From Burkholderiaceae bacterium (GTDB taxonomy: Bacteria; Pseudomonadota; Gammaproteobacteria; Burkholderiales; Burkholderiaceae), in NCBI GenBank assembly GCA_947470165.1, contig CANISN010000010.1, positions 1-19,177 on the forward strand: a DNA stretch of 19,177 bases. Direction: 5' to 3'. The first letter of the stretch is position 1, and each line of letters starts with the position of its first letter. The notes under the pieces were generated by a model. That model made no database searches. It was given only the letters and a program-made list of their open reading frames with translations, and had not been told where the DNA came from. The position numbers were made by a program, and so were the translations under genes. Shown one piece after another: positions 3,783-18,870 of this stretch.

Positions 3783-3803
3783 CTAAGGGCTCATAGGTGA
3801 AAT

Positions 3804-5402
3804 TTATGCGCAATCACCAGAGCCTCTTCTAGGGCTGTAGTTATATGTTAAACCGTTGAAATAACTTGCTTTCACAATTACTATAAATTTCCATAAAAAT
3901 CCATAAGTAATGGCAAAAATTCCAAACAGAGCAAAAAGTAAGTGCGCATCTTTCGGCACAAGTAAGCCATAAACCATCTCACCAACCATGATAATTGCTA
4001 TTGAAGATAGCAGTGGTGATGAAGATTTTAAAACAGAGGAAGCAAGCGGCGGGAGTCTATCTTCACTCCTTACTAGATATCGATACCACAAACCAAAATT
4101 AATACCAACCAGTATTGAGCTACTCAAAATAAGCAATGAGATATCTAAATATAGACCTTGAAATGCTAAGAAAATTTGTATAAGGCCAAAGCCCTCCATC
4201 AACCCTCCAAAAAATATCATCCACGGAATATCGGGAACACGCCAAGCAGGTATTCCACGGGCCTTGTATAGAATCATGGACTGACACAAAAGGAAGCATG
4301 AAGCAAAAAAGGCAGTCAAAAATAAATTCAGGAGATTAGAATCAACCGCAGTATAAATAGACACTGGGAAAAGGAGGGCGACGACATATAATTCTCGCGT
4401 CATCCACGATGATTGAGGTCTTAATATTGCGCGCCAAAATCTAATTTTTCGTCCAATTTTTAAAAAAACAAAAAAGAGACCAATTGATATAGAAGCTAAT
4501 GAACAAAGAATTAAGTCCCTAGAGCTGCCTAATGGAATCATATTTGTAGCCGTGAATATTGATGTTAATACTAGCAATCCAGATCCCATCCCGCCAAACA
4601 TCCAATTCATTGCAGCCCGCCAATCCCAAAAATTTTGAAGCGAACCTACAACTGGATTAACCTTGTCATGAAGGGCTTCTTTCGCTTGAGAAAAAGGTTT
4701 TTCAACCAAATCGCGACCAAGAATTGAAGGTGTTGTATACAGATATTTAATTTGAGGCTCAGTGCCAACATTTTCATTGAGCCGCATTGTTGGTTGGTCA
4801 CGCGAAAGAACCGAAACATTACTCTCGAGATCATTAAAGTCTCCAAAATTAATAGCTTGTGCTATGCAAGATGCAGCGCATGCGGGAGTTGCTTCAAAGT
4901 CAATGCCTGGCTTCAAGCCCCGCGCTAATCCATCATCTATCTTTGGCTGGCAAAAAGTACATTTTTGAGCTACGCCTATGCGCTCAGGGTGAGCTGTCGC
5001 ATTTTCTTGTTTCGTTTTCTCCCCATAATATCCCACATCCTCATGAATTAAGGTTCTGGCCTCATAAGGGCAAGAGACGGCACAGTAAGCACAACCGATA
5101 CATTGATCATAATCAATTGCAACTATGCCATCCTCTCTTTTAGTAGTTGCTCCTGTAGGGCATACAGGTACGCAAGGAGGCTCATCACAATGTTGACAAC
5201 CAGTTACCATAAATAATCTTTGGACATCCGGAAAAGCACCGGTTTCAATGTCAATTACTTTGCGCCATTGAACCCCAGGTGGCGTATCGTTTGTCTGTTT
5301 GCATGCAATCGTACATGTTTGGCAACCAACGCAGCGATTCAAATCAATGACCATGCCCCAGCGTTTTTTTTCAATAACATCTTGATTAACTTTTATGCTC
5401 AT
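3804..5402 (-). CDS. Fused 4x[4Fe-4S] electron-transfer subunit and NrfD-like membrane anchor (PadC-PadD-like)
   Basis: A 532-residue two-domain protein. Residues 15-185 are a DmsB/PsrB-type ferredoxin domain with all 16 cluster cysteines in four groups: C24/27/30/34, C69/72/77/81, C101/104/107/111 and C148/151/175/179. Residues about 262-515 hold roughly eight hydrophobic helices resembling the NrfD/PsrC/DmsC quinone-reactive anchor. In DMSO-reductase-family complexes these are usually two separate subunits; here they are one chain joined by a hydrophilic linker (about 190-258). No Tat or Sec signal is present, so the Fe-S domain should face the cytoplasm. The start is firm: AAGGA lies 6 nt before the ATG, which overlaps the stop of the upstream molybdoenzyme gene as ATGA. 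It would pass electrons from the Mo subunit to membrane quinone. Polysulfide- or nitrate-type complexes are less likely given the CoA-related neighbours. Confidence 0.9.
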   Translation of the reverse strand: MSIKVNQDVIEKKRWGMVIDLNRCVGCQTCTIACKQTNDTPPGVQWRKVIDIETGAFPDVQRLFMVTGCQHCDEPPCVPVCPTGATTKREDGIVAIDYDQCIGCAYCAVSCPYEARTLIHEDVGYYGEKTKQENATAHPERIGVAQKCTFCQPKIDDGLARGLKPGIDFEATPACAASCIAQAINFGDFNDLESNVSVLSRDQPTMRLNENVGTEPQIKYLYTTPSILGRDLVEKPFSQAKEALHDKVNPVVGSLQNFWDWRAAMNWMFGGMGSGLLVLTSIFTATNMIPLGSSRDLILCSLASISIGLFFVFLKIGRKIRFWRAILRPQSSWMTRELYVVALLFPVSIYTAVDSNLLNLFLTAFFASCFLLCQSMILYKARGIPAWRVPDIPWMIFFGGLMEGFGLIQIFLAFQGLYLDISLLILSSSILVGINFGLWYRYLVRSEDRLPPLASSVLKSSSPLLSSIAIIMVGEMVYGLLVPKDAHLLFALFGIFAITYGFLWKFIVIVKASYFNGLTYNYSPRRGSGDCA

Positions 5403-8164
5403 ATTTTTTCCTTAGCAAGCTCTGGGATAAGCAACTTTCCGCTTACCGCATGGCGAAGACGAACTCTCATAATATCTGCGCTACTTCCCGTTCCATCAGT
5501 TAGTTTTAGAGAAAGATCAGTCAAAGAATTTAGGCTTGGTAAATTTAAATCTTTAGCAAATGGCGTTTTCCAGTGATCGAATTGCCCAATCATAAGTACA
5601 GTATCCGGACGAATTCCTTCGCGTAAGACTGCATCACCTTCAGTATGGCCGGAAACAGATTCCAGAATTATCCTATCCCCTTCTTTGATGCCCATCTCTT
5701 TGGCAGTAGTGCGATTGATAATCACCCCTTTATGACCTGAAACATTGTCAGCAACCTCTTTAATTAAAGGAAGACCTACATTTGCACCCCATGCATACTG
5801 CATAGATCGCGCAGTCAAAGCCCAGAATGGAAAATGGTCTGGATTTTGTTCATACTCATGGGCATACTCCAACCAAATATCTGGAAAACATTCATAGGTT
5901 GGAAGCGGCTCATACTCGGCCAATTGCTTTTCCCACCATTCGATACCAGACTCATGTAATCGATTTGCTAGTTCATGTCCATGTCTTGTTATCCGCTCTT
6001 GGTATGGCATCTCAAATCGCAGGCCTGCTTTTTCAAGCGCAGGATAGAGATACCAGTTCAGCTGAGAAAACGGTCTTAATAAATATCCATTTACCTTGAA
6101 CCACTCTAAATCACGAATCTCTTCACCCTTGGTAAGACTATGACTGGCAGCTTTAGCAAATGCGTTCCATACCTCCTCGGTCCGCGGAGCAACCGAAGTG
6201 TCAAGCGAGTAATCAAATGTACCTGCCCGATCTTTTAAACGTATTCCTGCCGCCCCATCATTCACTTGCTCAAGATACTCGCCCAAAATTCCAACACGCT
6301 GCGCCAAGGCAGTAGAAATATCTGTGAAATCCATAGTATCAAATTGAGACTTAATGACCGGTTGGCGTATAGCCCACCCTTCATCCTTCCAGAACTGCTC
6401 CATCATCTTAGTTCCACCAACACGAATAATCTGCAAGCTTTCAATATCGAGTGATTCTGGAAGGAGCACATCTGCAAAGTGATTAGTTTCGTCATCCGTG
6501 TAGGCAAATGAAACAATGAATGGAAATTCTGCCAATCTTTCCGCTACCTCTGGTGCATTCCATGAGGAAATTGCTGGATTTGACCGATAGCAAAACCATA
6601 CATCTGGAGGCATTGTCCTAGGCCAATTATCTGGAGCCTTTTTTTGAAATAACCAAGGTAAATGTGCTGGCCCCAAGGAAGGTGACCAAGGTGAATCTGA
6701 CGATAAAGGGACTAGTGTTTTATAGGCATTACGAATGTGAGGTTGTTTCATCCATCCCTCAGCAGAAGTATCATTAAATTGATACTTCATCAAACCATCT
6801 GGCCCATCTGGAATGACCGATGCAGCTCGAGAAGTTGCAGGTCTAACTAGTTTAATCGTAGTACCTAAAGTACCACCAGGAACCTCAAGTCCCCCAACTA
6901 AGACTGTGAGCATTGTTCTCGCCCAACAACAATGGAAACCTCCCCATCCATTGTTCACACCCTTGCCAAGCATCACGGAAACAGGGCGAAAAGGCATAGT
7001 AATACCTTCTATCTCAATAGTCTGGCCAATACAGGCATGAGATAGGTACTCGCTCGCAATTCGACGAATAGTTTCAGCAGGAATGTCACATTCAGCTGCA
7101 GCCCATTCAGGCGTATAAGCTTTCATGTGCTCTAATAATTTTTGAAATGCCGGAACACCAAACGCACCCTGATGATCAAAATGATTTTTGTCGGGGCCAT
7201 ACTCAACTCCGGAAACAGAATATTGCCCAGTAAGTGCTGGTCTTAAGAGACCCGGATCATCATGGGGTTTCGCTTTGGAGTCTGCCAAATCCCAAATCAA
7301 TGGCTTACCAGTTTCTTTTTCACGCAAAAACCAACCATTTGGTCCAATTAAATAAGGTGAGCTAGTTCTATTTTTAATAAATGGGGCATCGCATTCTTTC
7401 TCAAGATCATGCTCAAATAAGATGCAGTAAATTAAGGCAAATAAAAACGCAGCATCCGTTTTTGGCTTAATTGGAACCCACTCAGCTGAGACCGCTCCAG
7501 TCACAGATAAATGTGGCTCTACCTGAATACGCTTAGCACCTCGGGCCCTTGCATTAGCCTCTCTCCAGACACCAACCACTCCACCGGACGCCTCGACATT
7601 ATTTCCACAATTAATGACGTAGTTAACATTGGGAGTGTCCGGGGAGACAGTGAAAGCCCTGTGCCACAACTCACCGTACAAATGCTCAGAGTGATAGCAT
7701 TTAACGCCTTGGCCAGCGCCATAACCACCATCAATTGGACCCCAGGCAGCCATAAATGCCGGGAAGGTTCCCATATATTGAACCGGAGTACCAGCGCCGC
7801 CGGTTGTAGTGGCAACGCGAGGGACGCCCTCTGCATTTAACAAGCCAGTTGCACGAATATGATTTAATTTTTCAGCAATTAGGTCTAGCGCCTCATCCCA
7901 TGAGACAGGAACAAAGCCGGGATCTTCATTCCTGCCTTTTTTAGGGTTAGTGCGAATCATCGGTTGCTTAATGCGATTGGGATTGTATGTTTTTTGAATA
8001 ATCCCATAAGCCTTCACACACACCCTACCTCCGCCTGGATGCTGACCGCATACAGAGTAATTTGACTCTACTCTTTTTGCAACACCGTCTTCAACCTCTA
8101 CAGTCAGTAAGTCAGGACCAGCAACACACTGATAACAGTAGATAGGAACTTTTATAGATGTCAT
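5399..8164 (-). CDS. padB: Molybdopterin oxidoreductase, phenylacetyl-CoA:acceptor oxidoreductase (PadB)-like catalytic subunit
   Basis: A 921-residue catalytic subunit of the DMSO-reductase superfamily with bis-molybdopterin guanine dinucleotide. The N-terminal Fe-S region has C10, C13, C39 and C49, the molybdopterin core runs from about residue 62 to 640, and the C-terminal dinucleotide-binding domain lies near 785-905. Cys156 (VKCYHSEH) is a candidate Mo ligand. Overall it resembles PadB of Thauera and Aromatoleum, the membrane-associated enzyme that oxidises phenylacetyl-CoA to phenylglyoxylate plus CoA. The chain begins directly at the cluster motif with no Tat signal, so it is cytoplasmic, as a CoA-thioester substrate requires. 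AAAGG lies 6 nt before the ATG. It overlaps the Fe-S/anchor gene by 4 bp, implying a stoichiometric complex. The family call is strong; phenylacetyl-CoA rather than a substituted arylacetyl-CoA or other acyl-CoA is inferred from resemblance and neighbours. Confidence 0.8.
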   Translation of the reverse strand: MTSIKVPIYCYQCVAGPDLLTVEVEDGVAKRVESNYSVCGQHPGGGRVCVKAYGIIQKTYNPNRIKQPMIRTNPKKGRNEDPGFVPVSWDEALDLIAEKLNHIRATGLLNAEGVPRVATTTGGAGTPVQYMGTFPAFMAAWGPIDGGYGAGQGVKCYHSEHLYGELWHRAFTVSPDTPNVNYVINCGNNVEASGGVVGVWREANARARGAKRIQVEPHLSVTGAVSAEWVPIKPKTDAAFLFALIYCILFEHDLEKECDAPFIKNRTSSPYLIGPNGWFLREKETGKPLIWDLADSKAKPHDDPGLLRPALTGQYSVSGVEYGPDKNHFDHQGAFGVPAFQKLLEHMKAYTPEWAAAECDIPAETIRRIASEYLSHACIGQTIEIEGITMPFRPVSVMLGKGVNNGWGGFHCCWARTMLTVLVGGLEVPGGTLGTTIKLVRPATSRAASVIPDGPDGLMKYQFNDTSAEGWMKQPHIRNAYKTLVPLSSDSPWSPSLGPAHLPWLFQKKAPDNWPRTMPPDVWFCYRSNPAISSWNAPEVAERLAEFPFIVSFAYTDDETNHFADVLLPESLDIESLQIIRVGGTKMMEQFWKDEGWAIRQPVIKSQFDTMDFTDISTALAQRVGILGEYLEQVNDGAAGIRLKDRAGTFDYSLDTSVAPRTEEVWNAFAKAASHSLTKGEEIRDLEWFKVNGYLLRPFSQLNWYLYPALEKAGLRFEMPYQERITRHGHELANRLHESGIEWWEKQLAEYEPLPTYECFPDIWLEYAHEYEQNPDHFPFWALTARSMQYAWGANVGLPLIKEVADNVSGHKGVIINRTTAKEMGIKEGDRIILESVSGHTEGDAVLREGIRPDTVLMIGQFDHWKTPFAKDLNLPSLNSLTDLSLKLTDGTGSSADIMRVRLRHAVSGKLLIPELAKEKI

Positions 8165-8207
8165 TTCAAACCTTTAATATATAAACAAATAAAAGTATTG
8201 TTCTCAA

Positions 8208-8618
8208 TCATTTAGGATTTAAGATCCGCTCTTTTTTCTTTTCTATTCGTAATTTTTGTTTCAATACATCAACCACAAAACGGGTATGGACAGCCGATCC
8301 TATCGTGTCAATTTCATCTTTGATATCCACTTGGAATACTACGCGCGGAAGATTTAATTCCTTAACGGTGCAATTTATTTCAACTATTTGACCTAAAAGG
8401 GTTGGGGCCAAATGATCGATCTCTACCCTAGATCCCACAGAGTCTTCACCCGTATTCTGGTGCGCCGATAACAATTCGCGGCAGGCTGTTTCCAAGTCAA
8501 ACACCATTGATGGGGTTGAGTAGATACGCAAGTCGTCACCCATAAATGAGATAGTTTTTTCAGTCTCAACTACATACTTGACTGAATACTGCGTACCCAC
8601 CTGAAGTGTATCTTTCAT
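8208..8618 (-). CDS. FlK-like hotdog acyl-CoA thioesterase
   Basis: A 136-residue single hotdog protein resembling the fluoroacetyl-CoA thioesterase FlK of Streptomyces cattleya. The opening MKDTLQVGTQY matches that family, and Thr35, Glu43 and His69 have exactly the 8- and 26-residue spacing of FlK's catalytic Thr42, Glu50 and His76. The conserved strand IGSAVHTRFVV (residues 106-116) also agrees. Family members hydrolyse small acyl-CoA esters in the cytoplasm. Here, placed between the transporter ATPase and the Mo oxidoreductase, it could free an aromatic acid or recycle CoA from a stalled intermediate. TAAGGA lies about 6 nt before the ATG and overlaps the livF stop; the gap to livF is 9 bp. 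Fluoroacetyl-CoA is not implied as the substrate, since the triad alone does not set specificity. Confidence 0.8.
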   Translation of the reverse strand: MKDTLQVGTQYSVKYVVETEKTISFMGDDLRIYSTPSMVFDLETACRELLSAHQNTGEDSVGSRVEIDHLAPTLLGQIVEINCTVKELNLPRVVFQVDIKDEIDTIGSAVHTRFVVDVLKQKLRIEKKKERILNPK

Positions 8619-8627
8619 AAATAATCC

Positions 8628-9371
8628 TTATAAGTTATTGCTGCTATTACCAAGACCCAGATAGGTATCTATCATCTTTTGATCATTTAAAAGATCTTTT
8701 GCCAATCCTTCGAGAGCAACTTTGCCAGTCTCTAGAACATACCCACGATCAGCAATTTTTAATGCCCCTCTAGCATTTTGTTCAACTAGTAATATTGATA
8801 TACCGCGAGCCCGCAAGGAAGATACTGTTTGAAGTACTTCATAGACAATCTTAGGAGCAAGTCCTAAGGAGGGTTCATCCAACATCAAGATTCTTGGCTT
8901 TGCCATTAAAGCCCTGCCAATAGCAAGCATTTGGCGCTCACCTCCAGACAGCGTGTCAGCTATTTGATTGCGACGCTCTTTTAGCTGCGGAAAGATCTTA
9001 AAAATACTATTCAGATTTTCTTCTTGATCACGCATACCTTTTCGAAATCTATAGAATCCTCCCAGAATGAGATTATCTTGTACTGACATCGAACCAAATA
9101 ATTCTCTTGTTTCCGGCACAAGGCAAAGCCCATTAGCAACCATTTGAGATACAGAATGCTTTACCAGCATTTTTCCATCTAACCAAGTCTCTCCAGATGA
9201 AGACAACATCCCCATGATGGCATTTAATATGGTGCTCTTTCCAGCTCCATTTGGCCCAATCACAGTAACAATCTCACCCTCGTTAAGCTCTAAACAAACT
9301 TCATCAATGGCCCTAACGGATCCATAGGCTACAGAAAATTTTTCAAGTTTGAGCAATGGTTGGCGGCTCAT
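8628..9371 (-). CDS. livF: Branched-chain-amino-acid-type ABC transporter ATPase LivF
   Basis: A 247-residue ABC ATPase with Walker A GPNGAGKST at 39-47, signature LSGGERQ at 141-147, Walker B ILMLDE at 161-166 and the VEQN switch (196-199) that distinguishes LivF from LivG, which has the usual His. It powers uptake together with the LivG half of the upstream fusion. Its ATG overlaps the stop of the livM-livG fusion (ATGA), with GGAAGG 6 nt before the start, so the two ATPases are translationally coupled. Genomic context (acyl-CoA ligase, thioesterase and Mo enzyme in the same operon) suggests an aromatic or other organic acid rather than leucine/isoleucine/valine as cargo, which is an inference. 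Confidence 0.92.
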   Translation of the reverse strand: MSRQPLLKLEKFSVAYGSVRAIDEVCLELNEGEIVTVIGPNGAGKSTILNAIMGMLSSSGETWLDGKMLVKHSVSQMVANGLCLVPETRELFGSMSVQDNLILGGFYRFRKGMRDQEENLNSIFKIFPQLKERRNQIADTLSGGERQMLAIGRALMAKPRILMLDEPSLGLAPKIVYEVLQTVSSLRARGISILLVEQNARGALKIADRGYVLETGKVALEGLAKDLLNDQKMIDTYLGLGNSSNNL

Positions 9372-11194
9372 AATGAACCTTCCGATTGCTCATCAATTCC
9401 TAAATATGCATCCAGTACGCGCGGGTTCTTTTGTATCTCTTGAGGGGTTCCAGTGGCAATAACTGTTCCAAAATCTAGCACAGTAATTCGATCAGCTAAG
9501 TGCATGACAAATTCCATATCGTGTTCAATAATTAAGATGCTTAAACCCTCTAATCTCAACTGCATTAAAAGACTTGCTAAATCTTTCTTTTCTAAATGGC
9601 GCAGGCCGGCAGCAGGCTCATCTAATAGCAAAGCTACGGGTTGTCCAGAAAGGGCTCGTGCAATTTCGACAATTCGCTGCTTCCCAAGAGAAAGTGAGCT
9701 GGCAATAGCATTCTCGGAGCCTGCCAAACCACAACGACGTATTTGCTCAATAGCCTCTAATTGAATTGCACGCTCTTCCCTTCGATCTAGCCTAAGCATG
9801 CAAGCAAGCCAGCCAAAATGCCCCCTAAGATGCGCACCTAAGGCAACATTATCCAAAACCGATTGAGACCTTAGAAGGCGTACATGTTGAAAAGTTCTTC
9901 CAAGACCACGGGTAGCAAAGTCACGAGCCACTTTACCCCTCATTGATTCGCCCAGCAGCTCAACTTGACCTTCTGAAGGAAAATCCACTCCGGAAAGAAT
10001 ATTAAAAATTGTACTTTTACCTGCACCATTTGGGCCAATCAAGGCATGAATTTCTCCTGCATTTAAATCAAGAGAGACTGATCTATTGGCAACTAGCCCG
10101 CCAAAGCGCTTAGTAACACCTTTTGCATCTAGAATGAGAGTCCCTTTTGGGGGCATATTCCGTGAATTTAATTCACTGGGCTCATATTTGTCGATATGAA
10201 ATTTTTTCTTAGGTTTCACGAATGATAAAAATAGCTTAATGAGTCCAGGCCATAAGCCATTTGGATAGTACTGAAGAATAAATAACATAATCAAACCAAA
10301 AATAATGGACTCCGGATTGATATTCGAGCCAAAAATAGATGGAATGATGTCCTGCAAATAACTTTTGATAAAAGTAATCAAACCAGACCCAAGTACAGCA
10401 CCCCAAAGATAGGCCGCACCTCCGATCACTGCCATAAATAAATACTCAATACTCGAACTAAGATTAAATGGGGTTGGATTTACAAAACGTTGAAAATGGG
10501 AATACAGCCAACCTGATGTAGAAGCCATTAATGCAGCAAGCATGAATACCTTGGCTCTATAACTACTAGTATTGATACCCATCGATTCAGCCATCAAACG
10601 GCCTGACTTTAAAGATTGAATAGCACGACCTTCTCTAGAATCTAGTAAGTTATGCATGAGCCAAAGCAATAGGAAAAAAATCAACCAAATAACGCATCCA
10701 AAGGAGCGTGGTGATATCAAGGAATATGTAGAGATGGATAGCGGAGGAATGCTTGTGATCCCAGTATGTCCACCTAGGAATTCAAGATTACCAAATAGAT
10801 AGTAAAAACTTAGGCCCCACGCAATCGTACAAAGCGGCAAATAGAAGCCTGATAAATTAAGTGTAATTACTCCTAAAAACCAAGCCAATGCATAAGTAAT
10901 CATTAAACCGAAGACGAGGCCAACCCAGGGAAGAAAAGATGGGTCCAGGAGATTTCCAAGATTATCCGCAATAAATAATGAAGTTGTTACCCAAGCTGTA
11001 GCATAAGCACCTATTCCGACAAAGGCCGCTTGACCAAATGAGGTCATACCGGCAACGCCGGTCATTATGACTAGCCCTAAAACTACGATGGCATATATAC
11101 CTACGTAATCTAATAAGGAAATAGTGAAATCAGGCAAGAAAAGCCAGGCGCTAAAAAAAGTGCTAATAGCAATCACGGGTAATTTAGCACTCAT
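9368..11194 (-). CDS. LivM-LivG fusion: permease and ATPase in one chain
   Basis: A 608-residue fusion. Residues 1 to about 325 form a LivM permease with around ten hydrophobic helices and the cytoplasmic coupling loop around 186-217 (SREGRAIQSLKSGRLMAESMG). Residues about 350-605 form a LivG ATPase with Walker A GPNGAGKST at 387-395, signature LSLGKQR at 501-507, Walker B ALLLDE at 521-526 and switch His558. A basic/polar linker (326-350) joins them. The frame is continuous, so this is a genuine fusion and not two genes. The start overlaps the livH stop by one base (TAATG), with GGAGG 10 nt upstream. It would pair with LivH in the membrane and LivF in the cytoplasm. Fused LivMG proteins are known in Burkholderiales-type HAAT transporters. 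Confidence 0.9.
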   Translation of the reverse strand: MSAKLPVIAISTFFSAWLFLPDFTISLLDYVGIYAIVVLGLVIMTGVAGMTSFGQAAFVGIGAYATAWVTTSLFIADNLGNLLDPSFLPWVGLVFGLMITYALAWFLGVITLNLSGFYLPLCTIAWGLSFYYLFGNLEFLGGHTGITSIPPLSISTYSLISPRSFGCVIWLIFFLLLWLMHNLLDSREGRAIQSLKSGRLMAESMGINTSSYRAKVFMLAALMASTSGWLYSHFQRFVNPTPFNLSSSIEYLFMAVIGGAAYLWGAVLGSGLITFIKSYLQDIIPSIFGSNINPESIIFGLIMLFILQYYPNGLWPGLIKLFLSFVKPKKKFHIDKYEPSELNSRNMPPKGTLILDAKGVTKRFGGLVANRSVSLDLNAGEIHALIGPNGAGKSTIFNILSGVDFPSEGQVELLGESMRGKVARDFATRGLGRTFQHVRLLRSQSVLDNVALGAHLRGHFGWLACMLRLDRREERAIQLEAIEQIRRCGLAGSENAIASSLSLGKQRIVEIARALSGQPVALLLDEPAAGLRHLEKKDLASLLMQLRLEGLSILIIEHDMEFVMHLADRITVLDFGTVIATGTPQEIQKNPRVLDAYLGIDEQSEGSL

Positions 11195-12222
11195 TACTCA
11201 TCATCCTCCACATGGCGACTGCGGAAAGAGCGCCAAAAAAGAACAGGCACAATCAAGGTAAAGACAATTACTTCTTTGTATGCGCTCGCCCAAAAGGATG
11301 AAAATGCTTCTAATTGCCCAACAAGTAAAGCACCAAATAAAGATAAAGGGAAACTAACAAGGCCACCAATGATGGCAGCAACAAATCCCTTAAGGCCAAT
11401 TAAGAATCCAGTGTCATAGTAAATTGTTGATAAGGATGCAATCAATATTCCAGAGATAGCAGCAATAAAAGATGCCATTGCAAAGCTGAGATCTCCGCAA
11501 AATTCAATTGGTATTCCAACCAATCTAGCACCTGTTCTATTGATAGCTGTGGCTCTTAAAGCCTTACCAAAGATATTTTTCTCAAAGAATACAAACAACA
11601 AAGCAACCAGAAATATAGTTACAAATACCACTATAAGAGACTGACCTTTTATTGCAACATTACCTATATTCAAGCTTTGTTCGGTAAAGAGTGGAATGCG
11701 CCAACCTTCTGCGCCAAAAAATAAAAGACTAAAACCTACCAAAATACCATGCAATGTAACGGCTGCAATAAGAAGAAATAGCACAGAACTACTAGCAATA
11801 GGCCTAAATACAAATCGATATAGAAGTGGGCCCAATGGAGTAATTATGAAAATAGTAGCTAATATGTTACAAATCACACTTTCAGGCGGAAGCACATAAA
11901 TACAAAATGCAGCAATAGCTGGGAAAAATAAAGTCCATATGAAGGTGGTTTTCCAGTCAACCTCAATACCATGCTTCCACCTCCATACTTCAGTAAATAG
12001 CACAATAGATGCCAAGCAGACTAGCAGCCAAAATGTACCTGGCGTTTTTGTTCCACCCAATGCAGCCATAGACAATGCTGCATAAGCAACTAAATCCCCT
12101 TGTGAGATAAAAATAACTCTGGTAACCATGAATACCAAAACCAAGGCGATGGCTAATAAACCATAAATTACACCGTTAACCAAACCATCCTGCCCTAAAA
12201 AAAGGGCAATTTCCCAGTTCAT
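11194..12222 (-). CDS. livH: Branched-chain-amino-acid-type ABC transporter permease LivH
   Basis: An inner-membrane permease of the LivH type with many hydrophobic helices and the family-typical opening DGLVNGVIYGLLAIALVLVF and the loop NRTGARLVGI. The frame is open upstream to 12291, but I choose the ATG at 12222. It has AAGGA 7 nt before it, gives the conventional LivH N-terminus (MNWEIALFLGQ) and a length of 342 residues, and leaves the strong hairpin at 12263-12292 untranslated. A hydrophilic stretch near residues 78-90 (the KHGIEVDWK region) makes it slightly longer than the classical E. coli LivH. It pairs with the LivM half of the next gene to form the translocation path. Confidence 0.88.
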   Translation of the reverse strand: MNWEIALFLGQDGLVNGVIYGLLAIALVLVFMVTRVIFISQGDLVAYAALSMAALGGTKTPGTFWLLVCLASIVLFTEVWRWKHGIEVDWKTTFIWTLFFPAIAAFCIYVLPPESVICNILATIFIITPLGPLLYRFVFRPIASSSVLFLLIAAVTLHGILVGFSLLFFGAEGWRIPLFTEQSLNIGNVAIKGQSLIVVFVTIFLVALLFVFFEKNIFGKALRATAINRTGARLVGIPIEFCGDLSFAMASFIAAISGILIASLSTIYYDTGFLIGLKGFVAAIIGGLVSFPLSLFGALLVGQLEAFSSFWASAYKEVIVFTLIVPVLFWRSFRSRHVEDDE

Positions 12223-12262
12223 CTGTGTTTCCTTAAACTCAATGCATTCAATTCGCTGAATA

Positions 12263-12292
12263 GTTGGCAGAAATTCATATATTTCTGCCAAC
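12263..12292 (-). promoter_or_regulatory. Perfect 12-bp hairpin between binding-protein gene and livH
   Basis: GTTGGCAGAAAT at 12263-12274 and ATTTCTGCCAAC at 12281-12292 are exact reverse complements with a 6-nt loop. The hairpin begins 13 bp after the binding-protein stop and ends 40 bp before the livH ATG. No run of U follows in the transcribed direction, so it is a poor intrinsic terminator. A 3' mRNA-stabilising or processing element that keeps the binding-protein message more abundant than the permease message is the likely role. Confidence 0.7.
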
Positions 12293-12305
12293 CCTAATCT
12301 TTAAA

Positions 12306-13457
12306 TTAATTTAAAGGCTCATATTTCCAAGTACCATTTTCAATTTTGACCATTACACGGGAACGCTGATCAAGACCTAAATGATCGGTAGGTGTTGTGT
12401 TGTAGATGCCATGTGAAGCGGGAACCTCCTTGATATTCTCTAAAGCTGCACGGAGTGCCGCACGAAAAGCTGGCGTCCCTGGCTTTCCTCCCTTTAATGC
12501 TTCTGGGATTGCTGCGCTCATTACCTGACCAGCATCCCACATGTGACCACCGAATGTCGATACGGATCCTTTTCCATAGACATCTTCATAGGCTTTGTAG
12601 TAAGCCATTGCAGATTTTTTAACTGGATTAGTTGTTGGTAATTGCGGGGCTACAAGAATCGGTCCAACTGCAAGTAGTGTGCCTTCAACATCTTTTCCAC
12701 CAACACGAATAAAGTCATTATTAGCGACACCCAAGGTCTGATATACGACTCCCTTAAAACCAACTTCTTTGAGAGTTTTTTGGGGAAGTACTGCTGGTGT
12801 ACCAGAGGCGGCAATCAGAACAGCATCTGGTTTGCTACCAACAATACGGAGCGCTTGTCCAGAAACAGAGCTATCAGTTCTTACATAGCGCTCGTTACTA
12901 ACTATCTTAATTTTCTTTAAATCAGTAGCGGTAACAAATGCCTGATACCAGCCTTCACCATATGCATCAGAAAATCCAATGAATCCAACTGTCTTAACAC
13001 CGTTATTGGCCATATGCTCGGCAGTAGCTAAAGCCATAGAAATATCATTTTGAGTTGTCTTATACACCCAACGTCTTGGGCCATCTACAGGCTCAACAAT
13101 TCTAGAGGCCGCAGAAACTGAAATCATTGGCGTTGTCCCTTCTGCAACCACATCAATCATGGCCAATGAATTAGGTGATGTAGAGGAGCCAATAATTAAA
13201 TCAACCTTATCTTCAGAAATAAACTTGCGAGTATTTTTTACAGCAGCTGTGGTATCACTAGCATCATCTAAAATGATGTAGTTTATTTTTTGCCCAGCAA
13301 CAATCTTTGGCAATAAGGCAACCGTATTTTTCTCTGGTATGCCCAAGGAAGCCGCAGGACCTGTTGTAGAAACAGTCACTCCAACATTAATGTCGGCAAA
13401 AGATAATGCACTAAAACAAAGAGCAACAGATAACAAAGTAATTTTGATAAATTTCAT
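12306..13457 (-). CDS. Periplasmic binding protein of a branched-chain-amino-acid-type (HAAT) ABC transporter
   Basis: A 383-residue solute-binding protein of the LivJ/LivK-like Peripla_BP_6 type. A Sec signal peptide of about 21 residues (MKFIKITLLSVALCFSALSFA, cleaved before DINVG) is clear. The mature chain opens with the typical strand INVGVTVSTTGPAAS and contains the hinge-region segments DLIIGSSTSPNSLAM and VGFIGFSDAYGEGW. The frame is open to 13490, but the ATG at 13457 is preferred because it puts the signal peptide at the N-terminus and has a GGGGGTG tract about 6 nt upstream. It captures the substrate in the periplasm for LivH/LivMG/LivF. Relatives in aromatic-degradation operons bind aromatic acids, and the adjacent CoA ligase gene (38 bp away) supports that. 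The ligand itself cannot be read from the sequence. Confidence 0.9.
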   Translation of the reverse strand: MKFIKITLLSVALCFSALSFADINVGVTVSTTGPAASLGIPEKNTVALLPKIVAGQKINYIILDDASDTTAAVKNTRKFISEDKVDLIIGSSTSPNSLAMIDVVAEGTTPMISVSAASRIVEPVDGPRRWVYKTTQNDISMALATAEHMANNGVKTVGFIGFSDAYGEGWYQAFVTATDLKKIKIVSNERYVRTDSSVSGQALRIVGSKPDAVLIAASGTPAVLPQKTLKEVGFKGVVYQTLGVANNDFIRVGGKDVEGTLLAVGPILVAPQLPTTNPVKKSAMAYYKAYEDVYGKGSVSTFGGHMWDAGQVMSAAIPEALKGGKPGTPAFRAALRAALENIKEVPASHGIYNTTPTDHLGLDQRSRVMVKIENGTWKYEPLN

Positions 13458-13495
13458 TTCACACCCCCAATAAGAAAATAACGCCGTCAATATTT

Positions 13496-15139
13496 CTAAT
13501 TACAACTTTTTCCATCAACTTCAATTTCCCTCATCCTAAACTTCTGCACTTTACCGCTTGCTGTTGTGGGGTAATCATCTACCACTCTCACAATAGACGG
13601 AATTTTGTAACTTGCAATATTCCCTTTGCATTTAGCGCGCAAACTATCTACGTCAAGGGTTGCACCATGTTTCAAACGAATCCATGCGCATAATTGCTCA
13701 CCATATAGCTCATCTGGAATTCCAAATACTTGAGCCTCTGCAATTTCAGGAATCGTGTGAAGATATTCCTCTATTTCCCGAGGAAAAATATTTTCTCCCC
13801 CACGTATCACCACATCCTTTAGGCGGCCGACTATCGCAACGCAGCAATCAGACCGCATCACAGCTAAGTCACCCGTATGCATCCAGCCATCTGCATCAAT
13901 AGCATTTTTAGTAGCCTCATCATTTTGCCAATAACCGGGCATAACTAAGTAACCTTTTACACATAACTCTCCAGTGATCCCCTTGGAGAGAGTACTGCCT
14001 GAGATAGGATCAACTACTTTTACCTGCACATGTGGTAAAGGTGAGCCTACTGTTTCAACACGTTGCTCAAAAGTATCAAGCAATGTGGTTTGTAATGAAA
14101 TAGGAGAGGTCTCTGTCATGCCATACACAACCGACATTTCCTCCATATTCATCTTATCAATGACTGCACGTAAAATTTCTGCAGGACAAGGTGCGCCACC
14201 CATCAAGCCCGTTCTTAATGTTTTTAAATCATATGAATTAAATTCAGGTAGGTTTAGCATGGCAATAAACATCATAGGCACGCCATAGATTGCAGAACAT
14301 CCTTCACGTTCTACTGCATCGAGACAAGATTTAGCGTCGAAAGTTTCTGCAGGAAAGACAGTGGCAGCCCCCACAGAAAATGCGCCGAGTACGCCAATAA
14401 CCATTCCAAAACAATGAAACATGGGTACTGGTAAACATACCTTATCTGAAGAAGTAATTTGTAACCTATAAGAGATTTGTATAGCGTTATTGACTAGATT
14501 GAAATTAGTTAATGTAGCTCCCTTAGGATTACCTGTAGTACCCGATGTGTATTGAATACTAACTAACTGATTGGGCTTACACGCATCGCTCAAATTTTCG
14601 ATATCTATATGTGATGTTTTAACCGGATTTTCAAGAAGCTCATTCCACGATATTGAGCCAGAGTACTTCTCATCTCCAAAAGTAAACAATAACTTTAAAT
14701 ATTTAGAATTTTTAATAACTTGATTAGCTGCTCCCAAGCAATCAAAATTACGGAAGTTGGGATGTAAAAATAACGCCTTGCATCCAGAATGTTCAATTAC
14801 ATAGCCTAATTCAGTCAAGCGATACGCAGGATTGATGTTAACAAGAATGGCGCCAATCTTTGCGACTGCAAATTGAACAACTACCCACTCATATCGATTA
14901 GCGCTCCAAATACCAATTCTGTCTCCCTCTAAAATTCCTGAAGCGAGCAATCCAGAGGCCACATCTTTTGATAGTCGATCTAAATCTTGGAAACTCAAAA
15001 TCTTGCCCTGCCATACACTGATGACGGCAGGTTTTGATGGAAAGTTATCAACCGATTCCTTCAATACGTCATTCACAGACATATTTCTGAGAGGCGGATT
15101 ATTACCGCCTATTGCAATTGAAAGTGCGCTAGTAGGCAT
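13496..15139 (-). CDS. AMP-forming acyl-CoA ligase (acyl/aryl-CoA synthetase)
   Basis: A 547-residue ANL-superfamily enzyme that activates a carboxylic acid to its CoA thioester through an acyl-adenylate. The landmarks are complete: P-loop YTSGTTGNPKG at 197-207, A5 motif YGMTETSP at 339-346, HTGD at 421-424, hinge GRLKDVVIRGGENIFP at 438-453 and the catalytic A10 lysine K530 in ASGKVQKF. It resembles FadD-like medium/long-chain and aryl-acid ligases more than the short PaaK-type phenylacetate-CoA ligases, which lack this architecture. Placement between iorB (42 bp) and the uptake binding protein (38 bp) suggests it activates the imported acid. The ATG at 15139 has no clear Shine-Dalgarno sequence; Met20 (codon at 15082) is an alternative start just before the conserved region. 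Confidence 0.88.
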   Translation of the reverse strand: MPTSALSIAIGGNNPPLRNMSVNDVLKESVDNFPSKPAVISVWQGKILSFQDLDRLSKDVASGLLASGILEGDRIGIWSANRYEWVVVQFAVAKIGAILVNINPAYRLTELGYVIEHSGCKALFLHPNFRNFDCLGAANQVIKNSKYLKLLFTFGDEKYSGSISWNELLENPVKTSHIDIENLSDACKPNQLVSIQYTSGTTGNPKGATLTNFNLVNNAIQISYRLQITSSDKVCLPVPMFHCFGMVIGVLGAFSVGAATVFPAETFDAKSCLDAVEREGCSAIYGVPMMFIAMLNLPEFNSYDLKTLRTGLMGGAPCPAEILRAVIDKMNMEEMSVVYGMTETSPISLQTTLLDTFEQRVETVGSPLPHVQVKVVDPISGSTLSKGITGELCVKGYLVMPGYWQNDEATKNAIDADGWMHTGDLAVMRSDCCVAIVGRLKDVVIRGGENIFPREIEEYLHTIPEIAEAQVFGIPDELYGEQLCAWIRLKHGATLDVDSLRAKCKGNIASYKIPSIVRVVDDYPTTASGKVQKFRMREIEVDGKSCN

Positions 15140-15181
15140 TATTAAACATGAAGTAGATGTTAAACATGGTATCTAATTACA

Positions 15182-16717
15182 TCAATTTTTCTTAAGTAAA
15201 TTTTTATCAAAAAAAGATATGGGTTGTAAATTTCCACTCATGATTTCTTCTTTTGCATGATTTTTCTCTAAGCACCGATTTACACCATCCCTTATTGCAG
15301 AAGAGGCATCTGCATTAATTTCTATAGCTGGTTTAACAATATGGTTCATTAATTTGTCAAAATCCCCAAGACTCTCTCTATATGTTCCGCTATAACCTTT
15401 AATTATTCTTGCACTTAAGGCTACTTCTAATGCAAAGTTATATGAAATTTTTCGACTCAAGTCTATAAGGTTTAACCATCCCTCGATAGATTCTTGTTCA
15501 GCAGCATAGCGATACCCAAAACGTCGAATTATCTTTAATTTAGAAACAAGCCAAAGAAGGCTAAAGCCAGAGATGCTGCTAGTTTTTAAATGCAAGCCAA
15601 AATTAAATTTTTCTAAAATCTCACGCTTCTTTGCCCAATTGATAATGGGTTTTGCAATAGAGGGCGGCAAAAACCCACAGAACTCTTCTAGTCCGGGCTT
15701 AAAGTACTCAGTGATTATTACGACTGATCCTGGCTGTACACTGGCCTCTTTATAAACTCGCTCAAACCTGGTTCTTCTTGTTTTTAAGTATGCGACCTTA
15801 ATTAAGTCATCAAATGACATTCGTAGCGCTAAATATCTTGCTGTCTCAGGTAATAATTCGTTATTTAATTCAGTGGAATTATCGGAGGGCGTTGATAATA
15901 AAAATTTCAGCCTCTCCAAATATAGCTTTGCATAGCTTATATTTTGATAAACAGTCAAACGACGTATACCTTCCTCAATAAACAGGTGGGCGTTCGCCGA
16001 AAACATCTGCTGTGCCTGCTTAATTAGAGCTTCAACATCTCGCTCAGATGAAGTTAAGCTGAGCGTTAGAGCTGAATGACTGTGTGAAGATTCTTGCTTT
16101 GCACCGCCAACCAAATCATAGGCGTAAGAAAATCCAGATAAATTTACTTTCACAGCAAATCCCGAAGTCTCAATCACTTTTTCAAAAACACTCCTATTGA
16201 TAGGTAAAAAACCGCTTCCCGCTAATGCCCCAAACATAATCGAACTGATCGCACTCTTCGTTGCAGAAACAGCTTGATCCATATCAAAGATGATGCTTTT
16301 TTTTGCCAATGCTCTAACTGCATCTGCAGCACGAGACACATCATAACGACCGTCGCCAATATGGGATTTTTCAGAGGTTGCGAACACTCGATGTTCAGAA
16401 GTAATTAAGGTAGTGCGATTTGGTGTTATGTAACCTGACTGCAAAACCCTTGCTGCTTCAATCAACTCAGAAGCTATGACTAAGTCAACCATTCCTGGCA
16501 TCGGTGTAAGGGCAAGGGCTTGGGTTGAATCCTTATCAGCTAACTCAATATAGTAAGTAGTCGCCCCCGTTCTTTGCGCCACACCTGGAATAGAAGTGCA
16601 TTGAACACGCATGCCACTCAACCTGGCTGCCTCTGCAATCCAGTCAGTTAATGTGCCGCCACCCTCGCCACCTAATGCGGCTATCAGAATGGAAATGGAC
16701 TTTTTATCTTGGATCAT
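15182..16717 (-). CDS. iorB: Indolepyruvate/2-oxoacid oxidoreductase subunit beta (IorB) with C-terminal extension
   Basis: A 511-residue partner subunit of IorA. Residues 8 to about 200 form the pyruvate:ferredoxin oxidoreductase gamma-type domain, recognised by GGEGGGTLTDWIAEAA (16-31) and the substrate-side motif GVAQRTGATTYY (45-56). Residues about 225-500 form a mainly helical extension with a segment (RRLTVYQNISYAKLYLERL, about 242-260) like the C-terminal DUF6537 domain of large single-chain indolepyruvate ferredoxin oxidoreductases. Archaeal IorB proteins have only the first domain, so this is the long two-subunit bacterial form. Its ATG overlaps the iorA stop (ATGA) and lacks a strong ribosome site, consistent with translational coupling and a 1:1 complex. 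It has no cysteine cluster motif of its own; electrons leave through IorA's Fe-S domain. Confidence 0.85.
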   Translation of the reverse strand: MIQDKKSISILIAALGGEGGGTLTDWIAEAARLSGMRVQCTSIPGVAQRTGATTYYIELADKDSTQALALTPMPGMVDLVIASELIEAARVLQSGYITPNRTTLITSEHRVFATSEKSHIGDGRYDVSRAADAVRALAKKSIIFDMDQAVSATKSAISSIMFGALAGSGFLPINRSVFEKVIETSGFAVKVNLSGFSYAYDLVGGAKQESSHSHSALTLSLTSSERDVEALIKQAQQMFSANAHLFIEEGIRRLTVYQNISYAKLYLERLKFLLSTPSDNSTELNNELLPETARYLALRMSFDDLIKVAYLKTRRTRFERVYKEASVQPGSVVIITEYFKPGLEEFCGFLPPSIAKPIINWAKKREILEKFNFGLHLKTSSISGFSLLWLVSKLKIIRRFGYRYAAEQESIEGWLNLIDLSRKISYNFALEVALSARIIKGYSGTYRESLGDFDKLMNHIVKPAIEINADASSAIRDGVNRCLEKNHAKEEIMSGNLQPISFFDKNLLKKN

Positions 16718-18870
16718 TTTGATGGGTATAGCAAATGATTTGGTAATCTTCTTCCCTGCATGGCGGAGATAAAGAAATTACGAAGAAAATAAAAGGCTGA
16801 ATCTATCAATCCAGGGTTTCGAATTGTTTCCACTCGATAAAATGATGGGCATAAAACAGCAGCATGAGCAACTTCCCCGCAATTTCCACAACCAATACAG
16901 CTACTGTTTACAGTTGTTACTGGGTCGACTCTTAAGGGGTCGGGATTCTCTTTGATGGTTAAGGAAGGACATCCGGACAGCCTAATGCAAGAATGATCTC
17001 CGGAGCATGTATCTTCATCAACGCCAAATTTTGTGTTAACAACCCGTTTACCTAACTTTAATTTTTGCGCAATTAGAGGTTTGATTCGGCGTTGCTTTGC
17101 TAAAGCACACTCTCCATCTGCAATGATGACTCTTAACCCCTTTGTATCATCTTTGACGGCTCGTTTTAGGGCCTTAATCATTTTCTCTACTTTGTAGGAT
17201 GGAATAGTCTTGATCCAACTAACGCCAACCCCACGTAAAGCTGACTCGATATCCATATCAACTGGCTGATCTTTGAAATTAACACCGCTAGAGGGGATAT
17301 TTTGATGTCCTGTTGCTGATGCATATCCATTTTTTAGTAAAACTAAAATACCACTTCCCTTATTAAACACATAGCTAGCAACACCTGAAGTCAAGCTACT
17401 ATGCCAAAACCCTCCGTCGCCCCCAATGCTAATGACCGGCTTTTCCATTAAGGGAGAAAGCCCCGCAGATGAAGCTAAACCCATGCCGTAACCAAGTATC
17501 GTGTTGCCAGCAAAGAATGGTTCTAGAGTGGCAAAACTATGGCAGCCTATATCGGCACTTATATGTAAGGGCCCAATATCTTTTTGAAGTAACTTCAGGG
17601 CAGAAAATACGGGTCTCTCAGGGCACCCAGTACAAAAAGTGGGGTATCGAGGTGGCACTGGCACACCTAATAATTCAGCGGCCTTTTTCTTAATAGATTC
17701 AATGTAGTCAATTGATTCAAGTGGCTTGGTATCAAGGCCAATGTGAATATGATCTGCGGCAAATTTCCCAATTCCTTCCAGCATTACCAGCCCAATATAT
17801 TCTCCAGCCAATGGGAAGTAATTCTTACCGCCGACATTCGTGCTAAGTTTCAAGTCATGACAAAACGCTTTGATTGCTTGCTCAAGAAACGCCGGCTGCC
17901 CTTCCTCAACAATCAATATATTCTTTTTATTCCTACAAAATTCTTGGATCTCAGTAGGAACCAGCGGGTAGGTAACATTCAAAACATAGAGTGGAATTTT
18001 AGAGATGCCATTTTTATCAATTAAGCCAAACGTCTCTAGCGCTCTAATGATTCCGTTATATAAGCCACCCTGCACAACAATACCAACATCTTCCAACTCT
18101 CCAGTGAAGAATTCATTCAGTTTTCTCTCTTGGATATATCTAACTGCTTCAGGCCATCTAACATTAATCTTCAACTTTTCCTGTACATAAGTTGCCGGCG
18201 GGAGGCTTATTTTGTCTGGCTCAAACAGGGATGATTGTAATTTATTGACTGTTGATATCTTTGGCTTAATATTGGTTTTAGTTTTGAAACTACCAGTCAT
18301 ATGACATGCCCGAATTCTGAGTTCAAGCATTACTGGAGTGTTGCTTGCCTCAGATAAACTAAAAGCTTCCTCAACCATATTTACAATGTGCTCAAGATCA
18401 GGGCGAGGATCGAGCAACCATATTTGGGATTTCATGGCAAAGGCATGACTGCGCTCTTGAATAATGCTTGAGCCCTCTCCGTAGTCCTCGCCAATGACAA
18501 TCACTGCCCCCCCATAAACACCAGCAGAAGCTAAGTTAGAAAGGGCGTCTGATGCAACATTGGTACCCACAATAGACTTGAAAGTAATGGCGCCACGTAT
18601 TGGGTAATTGATTGAAGCGCTCAACATTGCGGCTGCGCTTGCTTCATTGGCACAGTTTTCCACATGAACTCCTAAATCAGACAAATATTCGCCGGCATCA
18701 GAAAGTACATCTATTAAATGGGAGACTGGTGCGCCTTCGTATCCCCCTACATAAGAAACGCCAGATTGAAGAAGTGCCTTGGTAACGGCCAGAATCCCTT
18801 CTCCCTCGAAGATCTCCCCATCGCCTAATTTAAGCTGAGCAACTTCTTTTTTGAATGAACGTTCTGCCAA
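16714..18870 (-). CDS. iorA: Indolepyruvate/2-oxoacid:ferredoxin oxidoreductase subunit alpha (IorA)
   Basis: A 718-residue thiamine-diphosphate enzyme subunit that oxidatively decarboxylates aryl 2-oxo acids to acyl-CoA. The N-terminal pyrimidine-binding domain spans about 25-200 (GYEGAPVSHLIDVL, ENCANEASAAAML). The diphosphate-binding domain spans about 410-590, with FCTGCPERP (412-420), GDGGFWHSSLTSG (484-496) and N514 as cofactor-site landmarks. The C-terminal ferredoxin-like region has C622/C628/C634-P and C658/C661/C664/C674-P. The start codon is TTG at 18870, supported by TAAGGAAG 6 nt upstream; the first internal Met is residue 83, too late for the fold. It is first in the operon, directly behind the predicted promoter. 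Possible substrates are phenyl- or indolepyruvate, or an arylglyoxylate made by the PadB-like enzyme downstream. Confidence 0.87.
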   Translation of the reverse strand: MAERSFKKEVAQLKLGDGEIFEGEGILAVTKALLQSGVSYVGGYEGAPVSHLIDVLSDAGEYLSDLGVHVENCANEASAAAMLSASINYPIRGAITFKSIVGTNVASDALSNLASAGVYGGAVIVIGEDYGEGSSIIQERSHAFAMKSQIWLLDPRPDLEHIVNMVEEAFSLSEASNTPVMLELRIRACHMTGSFKTKTNIKPKISTVNKLQSSLFEPDKISLPPATYVQEKLKINVRWPEAVRYIQERKLNEFFTGELEDVGIVVQGGLYNGIIRALETFGLIDKNGISKIPLYVLNVTYPLVPTEIQEFCRNKKNILIVEEGQPAFLEQAIKAFCHDLKLSTNVGGKNYFPLAGEYIGLVMLEGIGKFAADHIHIGLDTKPLESIDYIESIKKKAAELLGVPVPPRYPTFCTGCPERPVFSALKLLQKDIGPLHISADIGCHSFATLEPFFAGNTILGYGMGLASSAGLSPLMEKPVISIGGDGGFWHSSLTSGVASYVFNKGSGILVLLKNGYASATGHQNIPSSGVNFKDQPVDMDIESALRGVGVSWIKTIPSYKVEKMIKALKRAVKDDTKGLRVIIADGECALAKQRRIKPLIAQKLKLGKRVVNTKFGVDEDTCSGDHSCIRLSGCPSLTIKENPDPLRVDPVTTVNSSCIGCGNCGEVAHAAVLCPSFYRVETIRNPGLIDSAFYFLRNFFISAMQGRRLPNHLLYPSK

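Follow-up and report, generated by a model that had tools for sequence, protein, structure and literature searches.

Thauera, Azoarcus and Aromatoleum break down phenylacetate anaerobically by the Pad pathway, in which CoA activation (PadJ), a molybdenum (Mo)/iron-sulfur (Fe-S)/membrane dehydrogenase (PadBCD) and a thiamine-dependent 2-oxoacid oxidoreductase (PadEFGHI) act in series. Published work describes a phenylglyoxylyl-CoA intermediate and its subsequent hydrolysis in Aromatoleum (PMC9765128), calls the phenylglyoxylate to benzoyl-CoA step unclear in the sulfate reducer Desulfococcus multivorans (PMC5109826), and presents IorA/IorB homologues as exclusive markers of the iad locus for auxin degradation. 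The iad route runs via isatinic acid to anthranilic acid, the isatinic acid step not being assigned to IadAB in the text consulted (PMC9613470). Here we analyse a 19,177-nucleotide stretch of DNA (hereafter the window) from a Burkholderiaceae bacterium, in which IorAB, a CoA ligase, an ABC importer, a FlK-type thioesterase and a Mo/Fe-S/membrane complex are encoded within one operon of 11 minus-strand genes (2910-18870) separated by gaps of -4 to 43 bp. With about even confidence, we propose that this operon combines the uptake of aromatic carboxylates with an oxygen-independent alpha-oxidation of arylacetates, IorAB replacing PadEFGHI.

IorA and the Mo subunit in the same genomes

The window IorA scored 278 bits against TIGR03336, under the cut-off of 651, and IorB scored 518 bits against NF006179, over the cut-off of 348. 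The thiamine motif of IorA (GDG...N) is intact, 12 of its 15 cysteines are common to all 41 aligned rows and a 13th occurs in 40 of the 41; together with its Fe-S cysteines and the POR domain of IorB, these are sequence features of an IorAB enzyme.

Among 78 distinct genomes picked for having a window-type Mo subunit, which are phylogenetically dependent and partly overlap our Burkholderiales sample, 74 encoded IorA at 50% identity or more, compared with a background of 21 of 289 Pseudomonadota genomes (host genome counted; 23 at E<=1e-40 minus two 29% matches). The 78 genomes correspond to 80 loci, as two genomes hold two, and came in batches of 40/40 and 34/38 with two repeated genomes removed. 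No IorA at this identity was found in G503, G517 and G519, or in G502, which gave a 29% match only; several genomes (e.g. G471, G499) are fragments. Similarly, across 399 Burkholderiales genomes IorA was present in 13 of the 17 with the Mo subunit (17 being a lower bound, as the two best candidates per genome were scored) and in 35 of the 382 without it (Fisher p = 3.8e-10, or 2.4e-9 once the host genome is removed). Four of these 17 lacked IorA: G117 carries a PadI that exceeds the cut-off, the PadI-like matches of G414 and G429 reach 217 and 227 bits and so fall far short of it, and G090 has a thiamine diphosphate (ThDP) gene of the acetolactate-synthase-like kind. Three genomes of the 289-genome phylum sample contain the Mo subunit, and two of those contain IorA. 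The tie between IorA and the Mo enzyme made in the original prediction is therefore borne out by a strong pairing at the genome level. Furthermore, in line with the original prediction, the host genome, which is 82% complete, gave no PadI match at E<=1e-60, and PadEFGHI was accordingly not found at this threshold.

On an IorA tree limited to rows longer than 560 aa, the eight PadB-linked rows were scattered, with six label changes of which at least five are forced by supported branches. A second tree built from other rows gave five changes, all five forced. Since PadB-linked IorA occurs in several places of the tree, the linkage was gained or lost several times, gains and losses being pooled in these trees. 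One inherited IorAB-PadB cassette was rejected because these sequences do not form one clade. The window IorA sits on a long branch and its composition is unusual, so that its exact place is unsure. Two IorA genes are adjacent or flank one IorB in L170, L173, L175 and L178; L170, L175 and L178 also carry TRAP-transporter-like genes.

A separate lineage of Mo subunits

To obtain a Pad reference, 399 Burkholderiales genomes were searched for PadI, which exceeded the curated cut-off in three. The reference locus, L106 of genome G166, carries PadI followed by Mo, Fe-S and anchor subunits, and its putative PadE-PadH were recognised by size and order only. In the Mo tree, the window-type family (45 of 60 rows, SH-aLRT 100) lay apart from L106 and its nearest rows; the tree was made by a quick method with no bootstrap, and long branches were flagged, L106 among them. 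It used 60 of 118 alignment rows, rows below 700 aa having been dropped beforehand, and the 118-row alignment holds repeated genes (rows such as L156/L022, L153/L179 and L155/L003). The Mo subunit thus falls outside the group of PadEFGHI-linked PadB; the Mo, Fe-S and membrane anchor parts of a Pad-type complex are all encoded in the window. The family splits into a 32-row group containing the window and a 13-row sister clade in which the Fe-S and anchor genes are mostly separate, whereas they are fused in the window.

The N-terminal Fe-S motif of the window Mo subunit comprises C10, C13, Pro17 Asp18 and C49, the third Cys being absent. Across the 118-row alignment, position 17 is Pro and position 18 Asp in all 91 family rows with letters there, compared with Cys at position 17 in all 24 outgroup rows, among them that of L106. 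All family rows with letters retain Cys10, Cys13, Cys49 and the Mo-ligand Cys156, and His42 is invariant (92/92 family rows with a letter, 13/24 outgroup rows). Pro17 in place of the third Cys implies that one N-terminal cluster ligand is other than the usual Cys; that Asp18 replaces it is a guess. The lineage is known here from sequence, and we met no report of enzyme activity for any member.

A neighbouring SelB gene in some loci prompted us to consider a selenoprotein, which was rejected because all 93 family rows with a letter at the ligand position have Cys there. The SelB-cluster gene (one cluster member tested) lies next or nearly next behind the Fe-S/anchor gene in L062, L064, L065, L066, L078 and L080. 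L196 encodes a Mo subunit that is closer to the L106 type (35%) and, behind it, an importer whose permease and ATPase are fused as in the window.

Neighbours of the relatives and the proposed route

We gathered 96 loci, two of which are repeats (L199 = L022, L192 = L020). They comprise the 80 top-ranking loci among 178 relatives found with the Mo subunit (59-79% identity), L013 and 15 further Burkholderiales loci; genes were called by a codon-usage gene caller. Many loci end at a contig edge, so that all gene counts are lower bounds. FlK was the commonest of the genes checked, with 48 loci; a phenylacetate-CoA ligase homologue occurred in 14, UbiD in nine, IorA, a 4-hydroxybenzoyl-CoA reductase homologue and a benzoylformate-decarboxylase-like ThDP gene in seven each, a class III CoA transferase in five, PadE/G/I homologues in one (L190) and a DpgC-like gene in one (L014). 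By record titles, the relatives come from Burkholderiaceae and from many alpha- and gammaproteobacterial metagenome-assembled genomes (MAGs).

The HcrA homologue of L038 matched 4-hydroxybenzoyl-CoA reductase (1rm6) with 961 bits. Benzoylformate decarboxylases were the best solved matches of the L070 ThDP enzyme, a distant match at 104-123 bits in which many entries are much the same enzyme, other ThDP enzymes reaching at most 101. The ThDP gene of L207 was dropped from this class as it matches NF006052 and acetolactate-synthase models. L200, L201 and L203 share the order ABC importer, FlK, Mo, Fe-S, anchor and phenylacetate-CoA ligase, with Hcr-like genes behind the ligase in L200 and L201. 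Because phenylacetate-CoA ligase, 4-hydroxybenzoyl-CoA reductase, benzoylformate-decarboxylase-like and DpgC-like genes adjoin some of the relatives, the Mo enzyme is best interpreted as converting arylacetyl-CoA to arylglyoxylate, as the original prediction proposed. This context supports the logic of alpha-oxidation, not direct membership in the Pad system.

The closest full relative is L014 of Lacisediminimonas profundi, with a Mo subunit at 79% identity and the order IorA, IorB, ligase, DpgC-like gene, FlK, Mo, Fe-S/anchor and importer. Co-conservation of the gene set fared poorly, the complete set with a related ligase being found in L014 only (1 of 96 loci) and IorA in 7 of the 96 stretches. 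The DpgC-like gene (8203-9465, 415 bits, cut-off 530) lies between ligase and FlK, so that 'oxygenase-free' describes the window and not this relative. The L014 operon may thus hold O2-dependent and O2-independent enzymes for one step. In L058, L069, L070, L074, L076, L079 and L085, the Mo gene is divergent from a cluster of thiolase, OB-fold protein, UbiD and ThDP decarboxylase genes; most of these clusters also contain SDR, FAD monooxygenase and CoA-ligase-like genes and suggest an aromatic route.

The window FlK carries the PF22636 domain and aligns with solved FlK at 44 bits, sharing its Thr, Glu, His and Arg, which we take to be the catalytic residues. Its context shows no link to fluoroacetate. 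Ten loci were too short for a test of gene position; of the 86 testable ones, 45 have FlK upstream of the Mo gene at a distance of up to 900 bp. Every one of the seven loci that carry a 4-hydroxybenzoyl-CoA reductase gene is among these 45 (six by a stricter cut). As these seven loci would need the aroyl-CoA, its hydrolysis by FlK would be futile there. Together with the hydrolysis of phenylglyoxylyl-CoA in Aromatoleum, this makes it more likely that FlK hydrolyses arylglyoxylyl-CoA than that it releases the final acid. A terminal aroyl-CoA thioesterase is accordingly the less likely role, which casts doubt on the last step of the original prediction, the release of the free acid from aroyl-CoA. 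In L015-L017, the gene behind the Fe-S/anchor gene instead encodes a hotdog thioesterase of another type, 4HBT_2.

In the route that we propose, the ABC importer would take up an aromatic acid (phenyl-, 4-hydroxyphenyl- or indoleacetate being candidates), the ligase would form arylacetyl-CoA, and the Mo/Fe-S/membrane complex would oxidise the alpha-CH2 to a ketone, delivering four electrons to quinone and giving arylglyoxylyl-CoA. The FlK-type thioesterase would then yield arylglyoxylate, and IorAB would convert it to aroyl-CoA by oxidative decarboxylation with ferredoxin as acceptor, the job of PadEFGHI in denitrifiers. We tentatively extend this, with a little less than even confidence, to a second, widespread lineage of arylacetyl-CoA dehydrogenases whose N-terminal Fe-S site has an invariant Pro-Asp where the third cysteine would be, often with a dedicated arylglyoxylyl-CoA thioesterase and paired with IorAB as arylglyoxylate:ferredoxin oxidoreductase.

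Several observations weigh against the route. FlK is absent upstream of the Mo gene in 41 of the 86 testable loci, and on the first IorA tree the clustering of PadB-linked rows barely exceeds chance, 57 of 500 shuffles giving as few changes. Furthermore, IorAB could act upstream, turning the arylpyruvates of Phe, Tyr and Trp into arylacetyl-CoA, with the ligase feeding free arylacetate into the same pool and arylglyoxylate being exported or finished elsewhere. Such a role, phenylpyruvate to phenylacetyl-CoA, is reported for Aromatoleum (PMC9765128) and proposed for Desulfococcus (PMC5109826). IorBA lies directly behind PadI in L108, where PadI would make a second arylglyoxylate enzyme redundant. 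IorA is also found in genomes that may hold other arylglyoxylate enzymes, both those with a benzoylformate-decarboxylase-like gene and G350, the genome of L190. The L190 PadI-like gene scored 223 bits with PadI (cut-off 700), 320 with 3-methyl-2-oxobutanoate dehydrogenase and 298 with PorB; the higher scores on other models establish a 2-oxoacid oxidoreductase and leave PadI unproven. CouP, a relative of the importer's binding protein, is reported to have bound 4-hydroxyphenylpyruvate.

Conversely, no aminotransferase or other arylpyruvate source is among the window families, the host genome has no PadI match at the threshold above, and the salicylyl-CoA 5-hydroxylase found beside IorAB and the auxin loci that proceed via isatinic acid fit arylglyoxylate. 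L227 encodes IorAB, a 4HBT_2 thioesterase, salicylyl-CoA 5-hydroxylase (1333 bits, cut-off 1078) and a gentisate-dioxygenase-like protein (330 bits, under cut-off), which would make aroyl-CoA the natural IorAB product there; in L170, gentisate dioxygenase over the cut-off adjoins IorAB. In L209, IorAB is accompanied by a hydroxyacid oxidase; among solved single-domain proteins this oxidase matches mandelate dehydrogenase best (302 bits), and a fused lactate oxidase scores 317 bits across two stretches. The L014 IorA is sister to an IorA beside a mandelate-dehydrogenase-related hydroxyacid oxidase. We therefore favour IorAB downstream, acting on arylglyoxylate, with somewhat better than even confidence and as the likelier of the two readings; the upstream role is less likely but the main rival. 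A literature search, with subscription journals mostly outside it, found no description of IorAB in place of PadEFGHI in the portions covered, including those of PMC5109826, PMC9765128, PMC10581246, PMC9613470 and PMC3610893. L108 itself shows an apparent operon (5758-14671) that brings two 2-oxoacid oxidoreductases together: PadI and probable PadE-H come first and IorBA second, and a LysR gene is divergent from them.

The Mo subunit shares 27% identity (918 aligned positions, 299 bits) with the PadI-linked PadB of L106, the reference used here, and this distance also weighs against the route. By sequence, the Mo subunit thus lies outside the PadB group represented by L106, an outcome that the original prediction named as refuting it, although the genes around its relatives speak for the same chemistry. 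The low identity, the altered Fe-S motif and the varied neighbourhoods (e.g. UbiD, thiolase, CoA transferase) could also mean that the Mo enzyme acts on another CoA thioester or reductively, the IorA pairing reflecting general aromatic-acid metabolism. However, the phenylacetate-CoA ligase and 4-hydroxybenzoyl-CoA reductase neighbours and the DpgC-like gene of L014 speak for arylacetyl-CoA, and we judge this alternative quite improbable.

Finally, BoxB, PobA (best 23 bits) and intradiol dioxygenase were not found in the host genome, a further point against the route, although that genome is 82% complete, only these three ring-degradation families were searched and BoxB had no control genome over the cut-off. 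As the Fe-S/anchor gene is followed after 21 bp by that of an EamA transporter, this would suit a partial oxidation followed by excretion, in which FlK frees a benzoic-type acid, EamA exports it and the cell gains quinol and reduced ferredoxin while the ring is kept. Export of the product by EamA is possible, but EamA had no match in the searched loci outside the window (E<=1e-8), and FlK stands upstream of the Mo gene in the seven 4-hydroxybenzoyl-CoA reductase loci; excretion is thus the least probable of these explanations, which are not mutually exclusive.

Operon layout, host genome and known systems

As originally predicted, the locus is one compact operon, with all genes on the minus strand and all families matched (Table 1). 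From IorA through the Fe-S/anchor gene, the gaps are -4, 42, 5, 14, -1, -4, 9, 43 and -4 bp. The same-strand EamA gene comes next and last, so that the operon extends outside the range 3804-18870 first assigned to it.

Table 1. Genes of the operon in order of transcription, with window coordinates
Gene product	Position	Strand	Basis
IorA-type 2-oxoacid:ferredoxin oxidoreductase alpha subunit, thiamine and Fe-S motifs, first operon gene	16714-18870	-	TIGR03336
IorB-type subunit, POR domain and DUF6537	15182-16717	-	NF006179
Acyl/aryl-CoA ligase, AMP-binding	13496-15139	-	family match
HAAT ABC importer periplasmic binding protein	12306-13490	-	solved relatives including CouP 4jb0/4jb2
ABC permease, LivH-like	11194-12291	-	family match
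Fused ABC permease-ATPase, LivM+LivG	9368-11194	-	family match
ABC ATPase, LivF-like	8628-9371	-	family match
FlK-type hotdog thioesterase; proposed arylglyoxylyl-CoA hydrolase	8208-8618	-	PF22636, 97.6 bits
DMSO-reductase-family Mo subunit; proposed arylacetyl-CoA dehydrogenase	5399-8164	-	PF00384/PF01568
Fe-S electron-transfer subunit fused to a membrane anchor (equivalent of PadC+PadD)	3804-5402	-	family match
EamA-family transporter; possible product exporter	2910-3782	-	family match

The ligase is 54% identical to that of L014 and is without the PaaK-type C-terminal domain PF14535, and the Fe-S/anchor protein has about seven hydrophobic segments from residue 298 onward. Among solved proteins, the binding protein matched 3sg0 (376 bits), 4dqd (374) and CouP 4jb0 (313), a relatedness that places it, by similarity, with putative HAAT importers of aromatic acids; 3sg0 and 4dqd were reportedly solved with aromatic 2-oxo acids. 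Between the binding-protein and permease genes lies an inverted repeat (12263-12292) with perfect arms of 12 bp and a loop of 6 bases, which overlaps the listed TTG start of the permease; it may set transporter stoichiometry.

The window is an entire contig of a MAG of 1.8 Mb in 260 contigs, 82% complete and 1.6% contaminated. A flanking MFS gene and its counterpart in the congener G001 share 89% identity, evidence that the contig comes from this genus and a point against misbinning. Similarity to G001 stops at the end of this gene, so that no empty site could be demonstrated. No Mo subunit orthologue was found in 36 congeners, the best match there being 5.9e-30. G+C is approximately 0.36-0.46 over the operon, 0.34-0.38 in the first 3 kb and 0.39 in 14 kb of G001, and composition is thus not decisive on origin. 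When plasmids were searched for the Mo subunit, every match was below 60% identity, and 1 of 76 records spanned at least 80% of the query. We infer that the operon is an accessory acquisition.

If the proposed route is correct, alpha-oxidation of aromatic side chains would extend beyond a few denitrifiers and their kin, as the Mo relatives occur by record titles in Alpha-, Beta- and Gammaproteobacteria, and many Proteobacteria would gain an oxygenase-free route from arylacetate to aroyl-CoA. IorAB would acquire a second job and become a candidate for the phenylglyoxylate to benzoyl-CoA step described as unclear in the sulfate reducer (PMC5109826).

Compared with known systems, the window shares IorAB with the iad auxin locus, whose IadA/IadB are IorA/IorB homologues and whose aerobic route passes through isatinic acid, an arylglyoxylate; a Rieske-type dioxygenase starts the iad route, in contrast to the Mo enzyme of the window. 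DpgC, the (3,5-dihydroxyphenyl)acetyl-CoA 1,2-dioxygenase, converts arylacetyl-CoA to arylglyoxylate with O2 and no Mo; the product class proposed here is the same, and the DpgC-like gene of the L014 operon is absent from the window. With FlK, the fluoroacetyl-CoA thioesterase, the window protein has PF22636 and the active-site Thr, Glu, His and Arg in common, whereas the overall similarity is weak and the proposed substrate is arylglyoxylyl-CoA. Both subunits of the indolepyruvate/arylpyruvate:ferredoxin oxidoreductase IorAB are present with intact motifs, IorB exceeding its NCBIfam cut-off, but here they are linked to an arylacetyl-CoA dehydrogenase-like complex and would act later, on arylglyoxylate. 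Finally, the window has the same series of CoA activation, Mo/Fe-S/membrane dehydrogenase and thiamine-dependent 2-oxoacid oxidoreductase as the Pad pathway, from which it differs by another Mo lineage, a fused Fe-S/anchor protein, another type of AMP-binding ligase, IorAB for PadEFGHI and an extra FlK-type thioesterase. We conclude that the operon probably encodes a novel form of Pad-type alpha-oxidation.

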